Shown: one piece after another, positions 47,205 through 54,651 of the stretch
Layout of the letters: every line of letters starts with the position of its first letter
Numbering within the stretch: position 1 is the stretch's first letter
NCBI RefSeq assembly: GCF_900103985.1
Contig: NZ_FNIE01000002.1
Coordinates: 558,001-622,000 of the forward strand
Direction of reading: 5' to 3'
Length of the DNA: 64,000 bases
DNA from: Actinacidiphila guanduensis
Lineage (GTDB): Bacteria; Actinomycetota; Actinomycetes; Streptomycetales; Streptomycetaceae
Notes under the pieces: generated by a model
Seen by the model: only the letters and a program-made list of their open reading frames with translations
Database searches by the model: none
Told to the model about the DNA's origin: nothing
Program-made: the position numbers and the translations under genes

Positions 47205-48386
47205 ATGGCCCCCCTGATCACCACCCTCTCCGCCGCCCTGGTGATCGCCGCCGCCGCTGCCGCCCTGTTCTGGCTGGTGCGCGGGCGCCGCGGATTCGGC
47301 ACCCCCGCCGACCGCGCCGCCTTCGCCACACTGCACTCCGCCTCGCTCGCCGCCCCGCCGCTGCGCGAGGGGCTGAACCCCGACTCCGCGCGGACCGCGG
47401 CCAAACACCTGCGCGCGCTGCTGGGCACGCCCGCCCTCGCCGTGATCGGCGACGGCACGCTGCTCGCGTGGGAGGGCCCCGGCCGCCGGCACGCCGCGCA
47501 GGCGGTGGAGCACGCGAAGGACGCCATGGAGGCGGGCCGGCCGTGGGTGGTGCCCGCGGAGGCGATCGACTGCGGGGACCTGGACTGCCCGGTGCGCAGC
47601 GCCGTCGTGGTGCCGCTGGTGGTCGACGGCCTCGTCGTCGGCGCGCTGTCGGTGTACGCGCGGCAGATCTCCGCGGGCCTGGTCCGCGCGGCCGGCGAGG
47701 TCGCGCACTGGGTGATCTCCCAGCTCGAACTCGCCGAACTCGACCGCTCCCGCACCCTGCTCATCGAGGCCGAACTGCGCGCCCTGCGCGCCCAGATCTC
47801 CCCGCACTTCGTCTACAACTCGCTGACCGCCATCGCCTCCTTCGTCCGCACCGACCCCGACCAGGCCCGCGAGCTGCTGCTGGAGTTCGCCGAGCTGACC
47901 CGCTACAGCCTGCGCCGGCACGGCGAGTTCAGCACGCTGGCCGAGGAACTGCACTCCGTGGACCGCTACCTGCGTCTGGAGCGCGCCCGGTTCGGCGCCC
48001 GGCTGCGGGTGGACCTGCTCATCGCGCCCGAAGTCCTGCCGGTGGCCGTGCCGTTCCTGTGCCTGCAGCCGCTGGTGGAGAACGCCGTACGGCACGGGCT
48101 CGGCCCGAAGCCCACCTCGGGCCGGATCACGATCCGCGCCGAGGACGCCGGCTCCGACTGCCGGATCAGCGTGGAGGACGACGGCGTCGGCATGGACCCC
48201 GAACAGGTGCGCGCCCAACTCGCCGGAAAGGGCGGTGGGGAGTCGCTGGGCCTGGGCAATGTGGACGAGCGGCTGCGGGCGGTCTTCGGCGACGACTCCG
48301 GCCTCGTCGTGGAGACCGCCAAGGGCGCGGGCACGAAGATCACCATCCGCGTCCCGAAGTACCGGAGCGGGGTGCACGCCCAGTGA
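47205..48386 (+). CDS. LytS-type sensor histidine kinase
   Basis: A 393-residue kinase. One N-terminal membrane helix (3-24), a GAF-like domain at about 50-175 (PALAVIGDGTLLAWEG, VRSAVVVPLVVDGLVVGALSVY), then the His_kinase domain with phosphoacceptor His in LRAQISPHFVYNSL at about 205 and an HATPase domain with LVENAVRHGL and EDDGVGMDPEQ. It lacks the multi-span 5TM-LYT input domain, so the signal is probably read by GAF in the cytoplasm. ATG at 47205, with CATAAT eight bases upstream. Its stop overlaps the response regulator GTG. Confidence 0.93.
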   Translation: MAPLITTLSAALVIAAAAAALFWLVRGRRGFGTPADRAAFATLHSASLAAPPLREGLNPDSARTAAKHLRALLGTPALAVIGDGTLLAWEGPGRRHAAQAVEHAKDAMEAGRPWVVPAEAIDCGDLDCPVRSAVVVPLVVDGLVVGALSVYARQISAGLVRAAGEVAHWVISQLELAELDRSRTLLIEAELRALRAQISPHFVYNSLTAIASFVRTDPDQARELLLEFAELTRYSLRRHGEFSTLAEELHSVDRYLRLERARFGARLRVDLLIAPEVLPVAVPFLCLQPLVENAVRHGLGPKPTSGRITIRAEDAGSDCRISVEDDGVGMDPEQVRAQLAGKGGGESLGLGNVDERLRAVFGDDSGLVVETAKGAGTKITIRVPKYRSGVHAQ

Positions 48387-49342
48387 ACCCGCTGCGTGTG
48401 CTCGCGGTGGACGACGAGCCGCCCGCCCTTGAGGAGTTGACGTACCTGCTGCGCGGCGACCGCCGGGTCGGCGAGGTGCGCGCGGCCGGCAGCAGCGACG
48501 CGGCGCTGCGGCTGCTGGAGGACGGCACCACCGACGCGGTGTTCCTCGACATCCGGATGCCGGGCCTGGACGGCCTGGACCTGATGCGGGTGCTCGGCCG
48601 CTTCGCCCAGCCGCCCGCGGTCGTCTTCGTCACCGCCTACGAGGACTTCGCGGTGGACGCCTTCGCCCTCAACGCCATCGACTACCTGCTCAAACCCGTC
48701 AGCCGCGAACGCCTCGCCGAAGCCGTGCGCCGGGTGGCCGCCCTGATCGACACCGGCCTGCCGCCGGGCGGCCCGGCGGACAGCGGGAGTTCGGCCCTCG
48801 GGCCGCCGACCGCCCCCGCCGGCACGCCGTCCGACCCGCGCGCCCCCGAGCGCATCCCCATCGACGTCGGCGGCGTCACCCGCTTCCTGCGCCGCGACGA
48901 GGTGGCGTACGTGGAGGCGCAGGGCGACTACGTACGCCTGCACGCCGCCGGCCGCGCCCCGCTCGTCCGCGTCCCGCTCGCGGTGCTGGAGGAGCGCTGG
49001 GCACCGTACGGCTTCCTGCGCATCCACCGCCGCTACCTGGTGTCGCTGCGGCACGTGGAGGAGCTGCGCTCGGACGCCGGGCACTGGACCGTACGGGTCG
49101 ACGGCGGCGAACTCCCGGTCAGCCGGCGGCACTCGCGCGAGCTGCGCGACCTGCTGCTCAGCTGGTCCGCGCAGCCCGAGCAGCCCGGCCGGGCCGACCG
49201 GCCGGGACCACCCGGGCAGCTCGGCCCGATCGACCGGTCAGGACCACCCGACCGGACACTGCCGCCCGGCCGGCCCGGGCCCTCCGACCTCCCCGGACCG
49301 CCCGGCCGCTCCGGCCCCGCAGGGCCCGGCGGTGCCCCGTGA
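48383..49342 (+). CDS. LytTR-domain response regulator
   Basis: A 319-residue regulator partner of the LytS-type kinase. Receiver domain 1-125: acidic pair D10/D11, phosphoacceptor D56 in AVFLDIRMPG, conserved Lys in YLLKPVS. LytTR DNA-binding domain at about 160-255 (RIPIDVGGVTRFLRRDEVAYVEAQGDYVRLH, FLRIHRRYLVSL). A Pro/Gly-rich tail of about 60 residues follows. LytTR proteins bind 9-bp direct repeats spaced by two helical turns; such an array lies at 51795-51908. The gene continues into the DUF485 gene by GTGA overlap. Confidence 0.94.
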   Translation: MNPLRVLAVDDEPPALEELTYLLRGDRRVGEVRAAGSSDAALRLLEDGTTDAVFLDIRMPGLDGLDLMRVLGRFAQPPAVVFVTAYEDFAVDAFALNAIDYLLKPVSRERLAEAVRRVAALIDTGLPPGGPADSGSSALGPPTAPAGTPSDPRAPERIPIDVGGVTRFLRRDEVAYVEAQGDYVRLHAAGRAPLVRVPLAVLEERWAPYGFLRIHRRYLVSLRHVEELRSDAGHWTVRVDGGELPVSRRHSRELRDLLLSWSAQPEQPGRADRPGPPGQLGPIDRSGPPDRTLPPGRPGPSDLPGPPGRSGPAGPGGAP

Positions 49343-49809
49343 CCGGCGGCGGGCAGCCCGCGCCCCCGCGCCGGGTCGCCGTCACCGCGCCCCGCCGCAA
49401 GCGGGCCGGCGGCTGGTCGGCCCGCGCGGCGGCCGCCGACCTGCACGCGCAGCCCCGGCTCGCCCAGGTCTACGCCCGCGCCATCATCCGCGACCAACTC
49501 CGGCTCGCCCTGGGCGTCCTGGCCGCACTCGTCGTCGTCCTCGGCGGCGTGCCCGCCGCCTTCGCCCTCGTCCCGGCGCTGCGCACGGCCGAACTGCTCG
49601 GCTTCCGGCTGCCCTGGATCATCCTCGGCTTCGTCGCCTACCCGGTGCTCGTCGCCGCCGCCGTGCTCCACGTACGCCACGCCGAGCGCGTGGAGCGGGA
49701 CTTCACCGACCTGCTCAGGAGCCCCGCCGAGGACCCGACGGCGCCCGCCGAAAGGGCTGTTCACGCCGAACGGCCCGAACAGGGCGTCGACGGCGAGGAG
49801 TCCGGGTGA
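49339..49809 (+). CDS. small two-TM membrane protein (DUF485-like)
   Basis: A 156-residue protein with a basic N-terminus and two membrane spans (about 56-77 and 93-112), the layout of DUF485 partners of acetate symporters such as YjcH. The charged ends face the cytoplasm. Its GTG overlaps the regulator stop and its own stop overlaps the symporter start, so it is made together with them. Probable accessory subunit; the exact family is inferred from context. Confidence 0.75.
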   Translation: MTGGGQPAPPRRVAVTAPRRKRAGGWSARAAAADLHAQPRLAQVYARAIIRDQLRLALGVLAALVVVLGGVPAAFALVPALRTAELLGFRLPWIILGFVAYPVLVAAAVLHVRHAERVERDFTDLLRSPAEDPTAPAERAVHAERPEQGVDGEESG

Positions 49810-51608
49810 ACCAGAGCCTCGGGATAGCCGCCCTGGTCGTCGTCCTGGCCGCCACGATCGGCGTCGGCGTCTACGGGTTGCGCCTGTCGCGCGCCACGTC
49901 CGACTTCTACGTGGCCTCCCGCGAGGTCTCCCCGCTGTGGAACGCCTCCGCGATCAGCGGCGAATACCTGTCGGCCGCCTCGTTCCTGGGCGTCGCGGGC
50001 CTGGTCATGGCCTACGGCGTGGACATGCTGGCCTATCCGGTGGGCTACGCGGCCGGCTACCTGGTGCTGCTGCTCCTGGTCGCCGCCCCGCTGCGCCGCT
50101 CGGGCGCCTACACCCTGCCGGACTTCGCCGAGGAGCGGCTGGGCTCGGCGGCGGTGCGGCGGGTCGCCAGCGTCCTGGTGGCCGTGATCGCGTGGCTCTA
50201 CCTCGTGCCCCAACTCCAGGGCGCCGGGCTGACGTTGCAGACCGTGACGGGGGCGCCGCGGTGGGCCGGGGCGGTCGTCGTCGCGGGCGCGGTGGTCGGG
50301 GTGTCGGCGGCCGGCGGCATGCGCAGCGTGACCCTGGTGCAGGGCCTGCACTTCTGGCTGAAGCTCACCGCCATCGCCGTGCCCGCCGTCTTCCTCGTCC
50401 TGGCCTGGCGCTCGGCCGGCTCCCCCGCCCTCACCGGCGACGACGTCCCCCGCTTCCCCCACGCCACGGTCGTGGCGCTGGACCAGCGCACCACCTTCGA
50501 CGTCACCGCCCCGCTGACGATCCGCGCCACCGGCGAACTCGACGGCCGCTCGTACGCCGCAACAGCCGTGCCGAGCAGGAGAGATGGCAGCACGGGCGTG
50601 CCCGTACGGCTGGGCCGCGGCGAGCACACCGCGGCCGCCGGGGCGCGGCTGGCCTTCCCGAAGGGCGCCGCCGTACCGCACCGGAAGGGGCTGCGGCCGG
50701 CCACCGGGGCCGCGTGGGCCCGGCCGCTGTCGGGCGCCGGCGGCCGCGCGCACCCGCTGTACGCGGTGTACTCGATCCTGCTGGCCACCTTCCTCGGCAC
50801 GATGGGCCTGCCGCACGTGCTGGTGCGCTTCTACACCAACCCCGACGGCCGCGCGGCCCGCCGCACCACCGTGCTCGTCCTGGTGCTGCTCTCCGTCTTC
50901 TACCTGCTGCCGCCGGTGTACGGGGCGCTCGGGCGGGTGTTCGCGCCGCAGCTGCTGCTCACCGGGCAGACCGACACCGCCGTGCTGGTGCTGCCGCAGA
51001 TCACCCAAGCAGGGGAGGCCGGGCGGCTGCTGGCCGCGCTCGCGACCGCGGGGGCGTTCGCCGCCTTCGTCTCCACGGCCTCCGGGCTCACCGTCTCGGT
51101 CGCCGCGGTCGTCTCGCAGGACCTGCTCAAGGGCTCGGCCCGCGGCTTCCGGCTGGCCTCGCTCGTCGCGGGCGTGCCGCCGCTGGTGATGGCGACCACG
51201 ACGGCGGGGCTGCCCGTGGCCGACGCGATCGGGCTCGCCTTCGCCGTCGCCGCCTCCTCCTTCTGCCCGCTGCTCGTCCTCGGCATCTGGTGGCGGGGGC
51301 TGACCGACCGCGGCGCGCTCGCCGGCCTGGTGGCGGGCGGCGGCCTCGCCGCGGTGGCGGTGGTCGTCACCAGCGTGCGCGGCCCCGGACACGGCTGGTC
51401 CGCCGCCCTGCTGGAGGAGCCGGCCGCCTGGACGGTGCCGATCGCCTTCGCCGTCATGGCGATCGGATCACTGCTCACCCGGCACCGGATCTCGGACGCG
51501 GCGGTGGACCGGGTGATGGTGCGGATGCACCTGCCGGAGGAGGTCACGGCCCAGGCGTACCCGCCGGTGCCGCAGGTGGACGTGCCGCCGCAGACGACGG
51601 GCGGCTGA
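49806..51608 (+). CDS. cation/acetate symporter (ActP-like, SSS family)
   Basis: A 600-residue sodium:solute symporter with about 13 membrane spans. Seen: ASREVSPLWNASAISGEYLSAASFLGVAG near the start (typical of ActP/MctP), LPDFAEERLG, FLGTMGLPHVLVRFYTNP and AAFVSTASGLTVSVAAVVSQD. A non-membrane insert at about 215-305, with beta-like segments, lies between spans and is longer than in E. coli ActP. Substrate is probably acetate or another short monocarboxylate. It is the fourth gene of the kinase operon; GTG start by overlap. Confidence 0.93.
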   Translation: MNQSLGIAALVVVLAATIGVGVYGLRLSRATSDFYVASREVSPLWNASAISGEYLSAASFLGVAGLVMAYGVDMLAYPVGYAAGYLVLLLLVAAPLRRSGAYTLPDFAEERLGSAAVRRVASVLVAVIAWLYLVPQLQGAGLTLQTVTGAPRWAGAVVVAGAVVGVSAAGGMRSVTLVQGLHFWLKLTAIAVPAVFLVLAWRSAGSPALTGDDVPRFPHATVVALDQRTTFDVTAPLTIRATGELDGRSYAATAVPSRRDGSTGVPVRLGRGEHTAAAGARLAFPKGAAVPHRKGLRPATGAAWARPLSGAGGRAHPLYAVYSILLATFLGTMGLPHVLVRFYTNPDGRAARRTTVLVLVLLSVFYLLPPVYGALGRVFAPQLLLTGQTDTAVLVLPQITQAGEAGRLLAALATAGAFAAFVSTASGLTVSVAAVVSQDLLKGSARGFRLASLVAGVPPLVMATTTAGLPVADAIGLAFAVAASSFCPLLVLGIWWRGLTDRGALAGLVAGGGLAAVAVVVTSVRGPGHGWSAALLEEPAAWTVPIAFAVMAIGSLLTRHRISDAAVDRVMVRMHLPEEVTAQAYPPVPQVDVPPQTTGG

Positions 51609-51794
51609 GCCGTCCCCCGCCGCGGTGACCTCGCGCGACGTCCTGCACGACTACGCCGGGCTTCCCGCCTTCGCCACGGGCGGCCCGAGGGGGAGCCAGT
51701 GCAGGGCGCCCAAGTGGGGCGCCGTGCAGGGGAGTCGGGGTCGAGCGGGCTCCTCCCGGCCGTCGTTGGGTGCCCAAACGAGCTGCCCCGCAGG

Positions 51795-51908
51795 CGCGTT
51801 CGGACCGGCGCGACACATGTTCGGCATTCTTCCGGAACCGTTCGGCGTCCCGCGGGGACCGTCCGTCGCATCGGCGGCACCGTCCGCCGCGCCGCGCGGA
51901 CCGCTCGG
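51795..51908 (+). promoter_or_regulatory. six-site phased array, candidate LytTR operator
   Basis: 9-mers at 51795 CGCGTTCGG, 51816 CATGTTCGG, 51837 ACCGTTCGG, 51858 ACCGTCCGT, 51879 ACCGTCCGC and 51900 ACCGCTCGG start exactly 21 bases apart (9 plus a 12-base gap). The third fits the LytTR consensus WMMGTTNRK at every position; others differ by one to three. The array ends about 45 bases before the -10. Confidence 0.65.
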
Positions 51909-51921
51909 CGACAGCGCGGTG

Positions 51922-51958
51922 CACACGCGTAGCTCCGTGTGACGGCTGCTCCTAGCGT
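51922..51958 (+). promoter_or_regulatory. satP-acs promoter and inverted repeat
   Basis: CACACG (51922-51927) and CGTGTG (51936-51941) flank the -35 position; TAGCGT at 51953-51958 is the likely -10, giving a leader of about 70 bases. Confidence 0.45.
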
Positions 51959-52033
51959 GGAAGGAGGGCCGTATACAAGCCGCCGCGGCCCCCACTTCCC
52001 CCTGCTGCCTTCCTCAACGAGGAGGAGACCGCT

Positions 52034-52666
52034 GTGAGTTCCCCCACCGCCGCCCCCGACACGATCGCCGACCCCGGGCCGCTCGGCCTGGCCGGCTTCG
52101 CCTCGACCACCTTCGTGCTCAGCTCCTTCAACGCGCACCTGATCCACCAGAACCTGCTCACCGTGGTCCTGCCGCTCGCCCTCTTCTACGGCGGGCTGGT
52201 CCAACTGCTGGCCGGCATGTGGGAGTTCCGCAAGGGCAACACCTTCGGCGCCACCGCGTTCGCGTCCTACGGCGCCTTCTGGCTGAGCTACGCGGGCTAC
52301 GTCAAGTTCGTCATCGGCGATCTCCCGCCGGACACCGCCCACCAGGCCACCGGGCTCTACCTGCTGGTGTGGGCGATCTTCACCGTCTACATGACGGTCG
52401 CCGCGCTGCGCACCAACGCGGCGCTGCTCGCGGTGTTCACGGCGCTGGCCGCGACCTTCATCCTGCTGGCCGTCGCGGAGTTCGACCAGTCCACCGCGAT
52501 CACCAAGGTCGGCGGCTGGGTCGGCCTGGTCACCGCGGTGCTCGCCTGGTACGCCTCCTTCGCCGGCGTCACCAACTCCACCTGGAAGCGCACGGTCCTG
52601 CCGCTCGGCACGCTCACCTTCTCCCTCGGCCGCAGCGGCGGACCGGTGGAGGAGCAGCACGCATGA
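52034..52666 (+). CDS. satP: acetate uptake transporter (GPR1/FUN34/SatP family)
   Basis: A 210-residue six-span acetate/succinate channel-like transporter. The family's NPxGL-type motif appears as GPLGLAGFASTTFVL at about 19-33, before the first span. Later spans include LTVVLPLALFYGGLVQLLAGMWEF and FGATAFASYGAFWLSYAGYVKF. It moves acetate (or acetic acid) across the membrane. GTG at 52034 after GAGGAGGAG. It overlaps acs by 4 bases (ATGA), directly coupling uptake to activation. Confidence 0.93.
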   Translation: MSSPTAAPDTIADPGPLGLAGFASTTFVLSSFNAHLIHQNLLTVVLPLALFYGGLVQLLAGMWEFRKGNTFGATAFASYGAFWLSYAGYVKFVIGDLPPDTAHQATGLYLLVWAIFTVYMTVAALRTNAALLAVFTALAATFILLAVAEFDQSTAITKVGGWVGLVTAVLAWYASFAGVTNSTWKRTVLPLGTLTFSLGRSGGPVEEQHA

Positions 52667-54651
52667 GTGGGGAGACCCTGTCCAACCTCCTGTCCGAGGC
52701 CCGCCGGTTCCCCCCGCCGGCGGACCTCGCGGCGGAGGCGAACGTCACCGCGGCCGCCTACGACGAGGCGGCCGCCGACCCCGACGCCTTCTGGGCGGCG
52801 GCGGCCGGGCGGCTCGACTGGGCCGAGCCATGGCAGCAGATACGCGACTGGAGCAACGCCCCCTTCGCCCGCTGGTTCACCGGCGGGAAGCTCAACGCGG
52901 CCCACAACTGCGTCGACCGGCACGTCGAGGCGGGCCACGGCGACCGCGTCGCCTTCCACTTCGAGGGCGAGCCCGGCGACACCCGCACCCTCACCTACGC
53001 CGACCTCAGGGACGAGGTGTGCCGGGCCGCCAACGCCCTGCTCTCGCTGGGCGTCCGGGCCGGCGACCGGGTCGCGATCTACATGCCGATGATCCCCGAG
53101 ACGGTCGTCGCGATGCTCGCCTGCGCCCGGATCGGTGCCCCGCACACCGTGGTCTTCGGCGGCTTCTCCGCCGACGCGCTGCGCGGCCGTATCCTCGACT
53201 GCGACGCCCACGTCGTCATCACCGCCGACGGCGGCTACCGCAAGGGCGCGCCGTCCGCGCTCAAGCCGGCCGTCGACGAGGCGCTCACCGCATGCCCGCA
53301 GGTGCGCAGCGTCCTCGTGGTGCGCCGTACCGGCCAGGACGTCGCCTGGAGCGAGGGCCGCGACGTGTGGTGGCACGACCTCGTCGCCGCGCAGCCGGCG
53401 GAGCACACCGCCGAGGCGTTCGACAGCGAGCACCCGCTCTACATCATGTACACCTCGGGAACGACCGCCCGCCCCAAGGGAATCCTGCACACCACCGGCG
53501 GCTACCTGACCCAGGCGGCCTGGACGCACTGGGCGGTCTTCGACGTCAAGCCGGAACGGGACGTGTACTGGACGGCCGCCGACATCGGCTGGGTCACCGG
53601 CCACTCCTACATCGTCTACGGCCCGTTGGCCAACGGGGTGACCTCCGTGCTCTACGAGGGCACGCCCGACACCCCGCACCAGGGCCGGTGGTGGGAGATC
53701 GTCGCCAAGTACGGTGTCACGATCCTGTATTGCGCGCCGACCGCGATCCGCACGTTCATGAAGTGGGGCGAGCAGATCCCGGCGCGGTTCGATCTGTCCT
53801 CGCTGCGGCTGCTCGGCTCAGTCGGTGAGCCCATCAACCCCGAGGCGTGGGTGTGGTACCGGCACGCGATCGGCGGGGACCGCACGCCCGTGGTGGACAC
53901 GTGGTGGCAGACCGAGACGGGTGCGCAGATGATCAGCCCGCTGCCGGGGGTGAGCACCTGCAAGCCGGGCTCCGCGCTGCGGCCGCTGCCGGGCATCTCC
54001 GCCGAGGTGGTGGACGACAACGGGCAGCCGGTACCGAACGGTTCGGGCGGCTACCTGGTCCTCACCCAGCCGTGGCCCTCGATGCTGCGCACCATCTGGG
54101 GCGATGAGCAGCGGTACATCGACACGTACTGGTCGCGCTTCCCCGGCTACTACTTCGCGGGCGACGGCGCCAAGAAGGACGAGGACGGGGACATCTGGCT
54201 GCTGGGCCGGGTGGACGACGTCATGAACGTCTCGGGCCACCGGATCTCCACCACGGAGGTCGAATCGGCCCTGGTCTCGCACCCGTTCGTGGCGGAGGCC
54301 GCGGTGGTCGGGGCGGCGGACGCGACGACGGGCCAGGGCATCGTGGCCTTCGTCATCCTGCGCGCGACGGCCGCCGAGGCGGGTCTCGACGGGGCGGCCC
54401 TCGCCCGCGAGTTGCGCGCCCACGTCACCAAGGAGATCGGCCCGATCGCCCGCCCCCGCCAGATCCTGGCCGTGGCGGAACTCCCCAAGACCCGCTCGGG
54501 CAAGATCATGCGCCGCCTCCTGCGCGACGTGGCGGAGAACCGGGCGCTGGGCGATGTCACGACCCTGACGGACTCAACGGTGATGCAAGCCATCCGCGAG
54601 GGCCTCCCCGAGGGCTCGCACGGGAGCGGGGAGGAAGCTGACGAGGAGTGA
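52663..54651 (+). CDS. acs: acetyl-CoA synthetase (AMP-forming)
   Basis: A 662-residue ANL-family enzyme that makes acetyl-CoA from acetate, ATP and CoA. Seen: P-loop YTSGTTARPKGILHTTGGYL (SGTT-R form instead of the common SGSTGKPKG), VDTWWQTETGAQM with the acetate-pocket Trp, GDGAKKDEDGDIWLLGRVDDVMNVSGHRI, and the C-terminal catalytic Lys in KTRSGKIMRR, usually controlled by acetylation. The length is normal. ATG overlaps the satP stop. The Arg/Ala in the P-loop may shift substrate choice, e.g. to propionate. Confidence 0.95.
   Translation: MSGETLSNLLSEARRFPPPADLAAEANVTAAAYDEAAADPDAFWAAAAGRLDWAEPWQQIRDWSNAPFARWFTGGKLNAAHNCVDRHVEAGHGDRVAFHFEGEPGDTRTLTYADLRDEVCRAANALLSLGVRAGDRVAIYMPMIPETVVAMLACARIGAPHTVVFGGFSADALRGRILDCDAHVVITADGGYRKGAPSALKPAVDEALTACPQVRSVLVVRRTGQDVAWSEGRDVWWHDLVAAQPAEHTAEAFDSEHPLYIMYTSGTTARPKGILHTTGGYLTQAAWTHWAVFDVKPERDVYWTAADIGWVTGHSYIVYGPLANGVTSVLYEGTPDTPHQGRWWEIVAKYGVTILYCAPTAIRTFMKWGEQIPARFDLSSLRLLGSVGEPINPEAWVWYRHAIGGDRTPVVDTWWQTETGAQMISPLPGVSTCKPGSALRPLPGISAEVVDDNGQPVPNGSGGYLVLTQPWPSMLRTIWGDEQRYIDTYWSRFPGYYFAGDGAKKDEDGDIWLLGRVDDVMNVSGHRISTTEVESALVSHPFVAEAAVVGAADATTGQGIVAFVILRATAAEAGLDGAALARELRAHVTKEIGPIARPRQILAVAELPKTRSGKIMRRLLRDVAENRALGDVTTLTDSTVMQAIREGLPEGSHGSGEEADEE

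Follow-up and report, generated by a model that had tools for sequence, protein, structure and literature searches.

Genes and repeats at the satP-acs locus

The window (the whole 64,000-nucleotide stretch of Actinacidiphila guanduensis DNA analysed here) carries, in this order, genes for a sensor kinase, a response regulator, a DUF4212-like protein and a symporter, then an array of short direct repeats, and then satP and acs. The relevant features are listed below, with repeat units numbered from the promoter outwards.

47205-48386, + strand: sensor kinase, LytS class by its catalytic domain, with GAF, His_kinase (PF06580) and HATPase_c domains (Pfam scan, open reading frame, genus synteny)
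48383-49342, + strand: REC-LytTR response regulator, proposed binder of the array (Pfam, genome-wide search, alignment)
49339-49809, + strand: small DUF4212-like membrane protein (below the Pfam cut-off)
49803-51608, + strand: sodium:solute symporter of monocarboxylate/acetate type (nearest to the NCBIfam VC_2705 family, MctC and ActP, all below cut-off; start approximate)
51795-51805, + strand: unit 6, most upstream, partial, CGCGTTCGGAC (GTTCGG core alone; not conserved)
51816-51826, + strand: unit 5, partial, CATGTTCGGCA (GTTCGG core alone; not conserved)
51837-51847, + strand: unit 4, strong, ACCGTTCGGCG
51858-51868, + strand: unit 3, strong, ACCGTCCGTCG
51879-51889, + strand: unit 2, the C6 variant typical of the second position, ACCGTCCGCCG
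51900-51910, + strand: unit 1, strong and promoter-proximal, ACCGCTCGGCG followed by A, starting 53 bp upstream of the -10
51953-51958, + strand: predicted satP-acs -10 hexamer, TAGCGT (TAGCGT in 21 of 23 promoters, TACGGT in 2)
52034-52666, + strand: satP, acetate uptake transporter (NCBIfam AceTr_1 above cut-off)
52666-54651, + strand: acs, acetate-CoA ligase (TIGR02188 above cut-off; start approximate)

The kinase is recognised by its His_kinase (PF06580, 82.8 bits) and HATPase_c (53.8 bits) domains. Its N-terminus has one hydrophobic stretch, and the Pfam scan of the protein found a GAF domain in place of the 5TMR_LYT membrane sensor domain, which it did not detect. In the regulator, REC is followed by a LytTR domain (PF04397; 68.9 bits against a cut-off of 22.6, E 4.6e-19), the best NCBIfam match being BtsR, below cut-off. 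A genome-wide search identified it as the only LytTR protein of the genome. It carries FLRIHRR, an FxRxHR-type motif beside the DNA-contact loop, in which F, R and HR are invariant in six relatives; the equivalents in known LytTR proteins are FFRCHNS in AgrA and FhRhHRS in VirR (PMC4227749). We sought an autoregulatory site before the kinase gene and found none: the array motif was not detected upstream of the window's kinase-regulator operon, and autoregulation, common in LytTR systems, is therefore not indicated.

The intergenic region (51609-52033) contains six in-phase units starting at 51795, 51816, 51837, 51858, 51879 and 51900. A sequence-only reading of this DNA had reported six units with a strict 21-bp period, and all five steps are indeed exactly 21 bp; only four of the six (51837-51910), however, are strong sites of the ACCGYYSGNCG type, and the number that is conserved is three to four. 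Units 5 and 6 score below zero on the profile built from the genus and have no counterpart in other genus promoters. Their GTTCGG core was picked post hoc; the + strand of the window has 40 copies of it (6e-4 per position), and chance is an unlikely reason for two such cores to fall in phase with the array. The array comprises four solid units and two partial ones. The earlier description of the cores as GTTCGG/GTCCG-type needs a small correction, in that the core at 51903 is GCTCGG and GTT is not invariant, GCT and GTC/GCC being common. The unit at 51837 fits the LytTR core WMMGTTNRK fully, as had been claimed, while the remaining strong units deviate at GTT (GTC, GCT). The array had also been said to end about 45 bases before a -10, and TAGCGT at 51953 does lie 45 bp past 51908.

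In order to judge the repeats independently of any motif, we used a self-similarity score that compares four 11-mers spaced by any lag between 11 and 60. The intergenic region scores 54, whereas 1000 dinucleotide shuffles average 38.8 and reach 51 at most. Two strong units in phase (ACCGYYSGNCG-N10-ACCGYYSGNCG) match three times, with overlap, in the 8.2-Mb genome, every time at the array, and control matches number 0. Chance or compositional periodicity of GC-rich DNA was considered as an explanation of the repeats, and GC-rich coding repeats of the window do reach similar raw self-similarity at multiples of 3; the other self-similar spots (e.g. 59475, 49190) lie inside long GC-rich open frames. 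The array, in contrast, is noncoding, exceeds all 1000 shuffles and is conserved in phase across genera and families, so that the probability left to this explanation is practically nil. Conservation already refutes it, and a chance origin of the four strong units is excluded.

Two further candidates were discarded. A coding repeat was rejected, no supported gene being present across 51795-51910. A wider regulon in the same genome was likewise rejected, since the loose pair pattern is at background (25 matches against 36 for the reversed control) and the strict pattern marks the array locus only. An Rfam scan of 51600-52100 matched no known RNA element.

Conservation of the array and promoter in Actinacidiphila

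We compared 23 satP promoters of the genus, each anchored on a -10. Three strong in-phase units are present in 14 and four in eight, and the remaining promoter (genome G032) contains one 22-bp step. G017 (L046), the most divergent member, has no recognisable -10 and is for that reason not among the 23; its array is headed by two perfect ACCGTTCGGCG units 21 bp apart. Column identity is 87-93% in the cores and 61-65% in the spacers, and the consensus of 71 genus units is ACCG[CT][CT][CG]G.CG. The alignment that the sequence-only reading had proposed as a check therefore came out in its favour: phase and cores are kept while spacers change, in the 23 genus promoters and in several other actinomycete families. 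Because the genus sequences are related, these counts do not represent independent events; the independence of the evidence rests on Jiangellaceae, Streptosporangiaceae, Thermomonosporaceae, Geodermatophilaceae and others, together with a rearranged locus and unlinked targets described below. At the upstream end of one array (L048, genome G023) an extra ACCGTTCGTCG unit lies 28 bp, not 21 bp, before the next unit, within a recent-looking tandem duplication that hints at how arrays grow.

The distance to the promoter is conserved as well. The proximal unit starts 52-54 bp upstream of the -10 in 22 of the 23 promoters; in L048 the score threshold assigned the next unit, at 74 bp, and a weaker unit is present at 53. 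Relative to the predicted start, the proximal unit is thus centred at about -60. No recognisable -35 was found in the genus promoters, where the best TTGACA matches reach 2.7 of 6 positions against a background of 2.5. It is very improbable, in our judgement, that the array represses satP-acs or sets its level with no activation. PlnD, a LytTR regulator acting on the same repeats as PlnC, does repress (PMC2714321), but the upstream position of the array (about -60 to -124) and the missing -35 fit activation, as at the agr promoters.

The satP leader (51965-52033) has features of its own. A GC-rich inverted repeat follows the -10 directly, is conserved in the genus and is clear in relatives (e.g. 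GGGACCGGAAACGGTCCC in L033). The ribosome-binding site (52010-52026 in the window) has the genus-conserved form TTCCTC-RAY-GAGGAGG, whose upstream arm could pair with the Shine-Dalgarno sequence. In a single-sequence fold the leader does no better than shuffles.

The units differ according to their position in the array. In all 23 promoters, position 6 of unit 1 is T and its core is followed by A. Unit 2 is in phase in 22 of them and has C at position 6 in 20 of these 22. T returns at position 6 in unit 3 (17 of 22) and unit 4 (8 of 9). Since the base at position 6 varies with unit position, the array looks like a series of strong, variant, strong and strong units and not like a set of identical copies. 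In other orders, too, the second position from the promoter is degenerate (e.g. L077, L094, L084). The same regulator might act through one pair only, probably units 1 and 3 or 3 and 4, the others being decayed duplicates with no role. Two good units are frequent in other genera, and units 5 and 6 of the window are weak and not conserved, as this explanation would have it. We nevertheless consider it unlikely, given the numbers of promoters with three or four strong units and the in-phase unit 2 with its own consensus, which decay would not keep.

Co-occurrence of the array and the regulator

Of the 35 genomes of the genus, 24 have the regulator, and exactly these 24 also have a close satP orthologue. 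All 11 regulator-less genomes encode acs (with about 76% identity); over the 700 bp upstream of this gene the weaker unit of the best 21-bp pair scores at most 3.3 bits, compared with 9.9-14.6 in the 23 regulator-positive promoters. One of the 11 (G001) has a single strict-pattern match elsewhere, with a different core type; we rejected it as background, since reversed-pattern controls give 12 matches over the 35 genomes. In G011 satP-acs is divergent and lies across the kinase gene, on its other side, and the array has moved along at the same 53 bp.

In order to look beyond the genus, we examined 80 named actinomycete loci that encode relatives of the regulator; two come from Actinacidiphila. 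Chains of genus-type units above 12 bits number 25 at lag 21 and 0-4 at every other lag from 12 to 32. On one side of these chains are the DUF4212-symporter genes and on the other a second operon; that of Jiangella begins with DUF485, followed by ActP and acs. Across other actinomycetes the genes downstream of the 21-bp motif are DUF485-actP(-acs), satP-acs, an acs gene that is not linked to the regulator, or a lactate/oxalate-formate-type MFS gene. Taken modulo 21, the spacing between a chain and the following -10-like hexamer, found by a simple first-match rule that may misplace single cases, is 10-12 in 25 of 26, so that promoter spacing is also kept. Other genera often have two good units only, and because the profile was built from the genus, distant LytTR sites (e.g. 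in Micromonosporaceae) mostly escape it and detection in distant families is partial.

The motif also accompanies target genes that have left the regulator. Searching by motif alone turned up a pair some 130 bp upstream of acs in G112 and G237, where the regulator gene is on a different contig or roughly 0.4 Mb distant. Three Streptomycetaceae genomes (G249, G104 and G070; loci L215, L216 and L221) have a three-unit array before an L-lactate/oxalate-formate-type MFS gene, the regulator being encoded elsewhere, and in G060 and G049 a pair sits between the regulator and a divergent satP-acs, 54 bp upstream of TAGCGT. Since the motif tracks target genes wherever they are placed, in regulator-bearing genomes, it behaves as an operator would. 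The array, its conservation, its fixed distance from the -10, its co-occurrence with the regulator and its travel with the target genes are all legible in the genomes themselves.

As side observations, the MFS gene of L215, L216 and L221 adjoins a beta-ketoacyl-ACP synthase III-like gene. Most of a set of loci from Lentzea (L096, L105, L133, L140, L143, L144) and Saccharothrix (L109, L111, L119, L141) carry opposite-strand pairs such as TCCGTTCGTCGC-N9-GCCACTCGTCTC, situated 1-4 kb past the kinase gene; these are probably a related operator with another target. A review of S. coelicolor lists an orphan LytTR regulator, SCO1220 (PMC9739842).

The co-occurrence bears on whether a different regulator of acetate genes, such as GlnR, a BldC-like protein or an unlinked factor, binds the array, with the LytTR system a mere neighbour. 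GlnR is discussed in connection with acetyl-CoA synthetase in actinomycetes in a review (PMC10704036), and BldC forms cooperative multimers on direct repeats in Streptomyces (PMC5859096). Yet the motif tracks the LytTR gene across genomes: besides the regulator-less relatives, which have no motif before acs, the regulator is present in 10 of 16 motif-picked genomes from other genera of the family, including all those with an ACCGYTCG-type pair before satP, acs, actP or an MFS gene, although the 20 genomes of this search were chosen with the motif in mind and the 10 positives give no unbiased rate. The array unit does not appear to resemble the GlnR box, and BldC repeats are about 10 bp apart. 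Together with the 9-12-9 layout and the ACC-GYT core, which are features of LytTR sites, this makes binding by another factor quite improbable. The repeats are very probably, as judged from sequence, binding sites of the neighbouring LytTR-type regulator, and the earlier proposal that the protein encoded at 48383 controls satP-acs through them gains support from the conserved phase and cores, the 24-of-35 co-occurrence, the lack of the motif before acs in regulator-less relatives, and the motif at unlinked targets.

Comparison with known LytTR systems

LytTR regulators act on two repeats of 9-11 bp with 11-13 bp between them (PMC4847170; PMC6193735), and the period of 21 bp in the window and its relatives falls within the resulting 20-22 bp. 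Known repeats include 9-bp elements 12 bp apart, e.g. ACCGCTTGT-12-ACCGCTTAT, and repeats of the ACC-GYT kind are established LytTR sites (PMC6193735). Nearly all LytTR promoters have two repeats (PMC4847170), a number that the sequence-only reading had called usual, compared with three to four strong units per promoter in the genus; two is usual rather than necessary. The array keeps the known geometry and extends it.

The E. coli pyruvate systems of the LytS/LytTR type, YpdA/YpdB-yhjX and BtsS/BtsR-btsT (yjiY), likewise combine a LytTR regulator with a PF06580-type kinase acting on a monocarboxylate transporter gene. The GGCATTTCAT repeats of YpdB are exactly 21 bp apart, like those of the array, as computed from an oligonucleotide in PMC4847170, and yhjX is an MFS transporter gene, comparable to the lactate/oxalate-formate-kind MFS gene behind the array in Streptomyces relatives. 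YpdAB and BtsSR differ from the present system in having two repeats, where we find three to four, and in site sequence; here the targets include satP, acs and actP, and in place of the multi-span sensor of LytS type the kinase has a GAF domain and a single hydrophobic stretch. In the same yhjX oligonucleotide (PMC4847170), GTCATTCATT stands 21 bp before the first GGCATTTCAT, alike at 6 of 10 positions, and may be a third, weak YpdB unit.

AgrA at agr P2-P3, PlnC at PlnA and the S. mutans LytTR systems likewise act at weak promoters preceded by 9-bp direct repeats that are separated by 12 bp, with similar site sequences (PMC6193735) and, for AgrA, promoter-proximal repeats centred at about -60 (PMC4227749). 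These are pairs, not arrays, and serve quorum sensing, bacteriocins or competence, not acetate use. Acetate use and acs are under two-component control by CrbS/CrbR in Pseudomonas and Vibrio, where CrbS is a symporter-kinase fusion, unlike the kinase here (PMC5715377). CrbS/CrbR is analogous to the LytTR system described here, its DNA-binding part not being homologous. CrbR is a LuxR-type regulator. Our search of the open-licence literature yielded no paper linking LytTR to acetate or acetyl-CoA synthetase in actinobacteria, Streptomyces included.

Proposed mechanism and implications

We are confident, on the strength of the comparative evidence, that the repeats serve as the operator of the upstream REC-LytTR regulator (48383-49342), which when phosphorylated would bind head to tail and activate satP-acs. 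The neighbouring kinase would phosphorylate the regulator, which would then occupy the array with one LytTR domain per ACCGYYSGNCG unit. A period of 21 bp amounts to two helical turns and would put the units on one face of the DNA, so that regulator molecules could align head to tail. Regulator on the proximal unit, whose centre is some 60 bp upstream of the predicted start, would recruit RNA polymerase to a promoter with a good -10 and no -35, and satP-acs would be switched on when acetate or a related monocarboxylate is available. The targets point to acetate or a related monocarboxylate as the probable inducer. Observations that count against this mechanism include the C at position 6 of unit 2, where PlnC needs T, a base crucial for its binding (PMC2714321), and the 22-bp step in G032. 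We infer binding, phosphorylation, activation rather than repression, cooperativity, graded control and the inducer from the features of the locus and its relatives.

A bolder extension, which may well prove wrong but seems to us a real possibility, is that actinomycete LytTR regulators form head-to-tail oligomers on three to six 21-bp units, not one dimer per pair, and that the variant unit 2 (C6) tunes cooperativity into a sharp or graded switch of acetate uptake and activation. The best hint of oligomers longer than a dimer is that the commonest number of units is three. YpdB, for its part, binds as monomers, sequentially and cooperatively (PMC4847170).

The regulator, by its domain a LytTR response regulator, and the units, which appear to be LytTR-type sites, belong to an already known kind. 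The present system departs from it in how many units there are, in their position-specific sequence and in its acetate targets; set against the usual LytTR pairs, an array whose second unit is a conserved variant represents a new form. The odd number of units, mostly three, and the position-specific second unit challenge the picture of LytTR regulators as one dimer on a pair of sites. A specific candidate operator and target set can now be assigned to a widespread actinomycete two-component system undescribed in the open-licence literature searched. This system appears to control the uptake of acetate and related monocarboxylates. The acetyl-CoA that its targets supply is the precursor of polyketides and other compounds that these bacteria are used to make.
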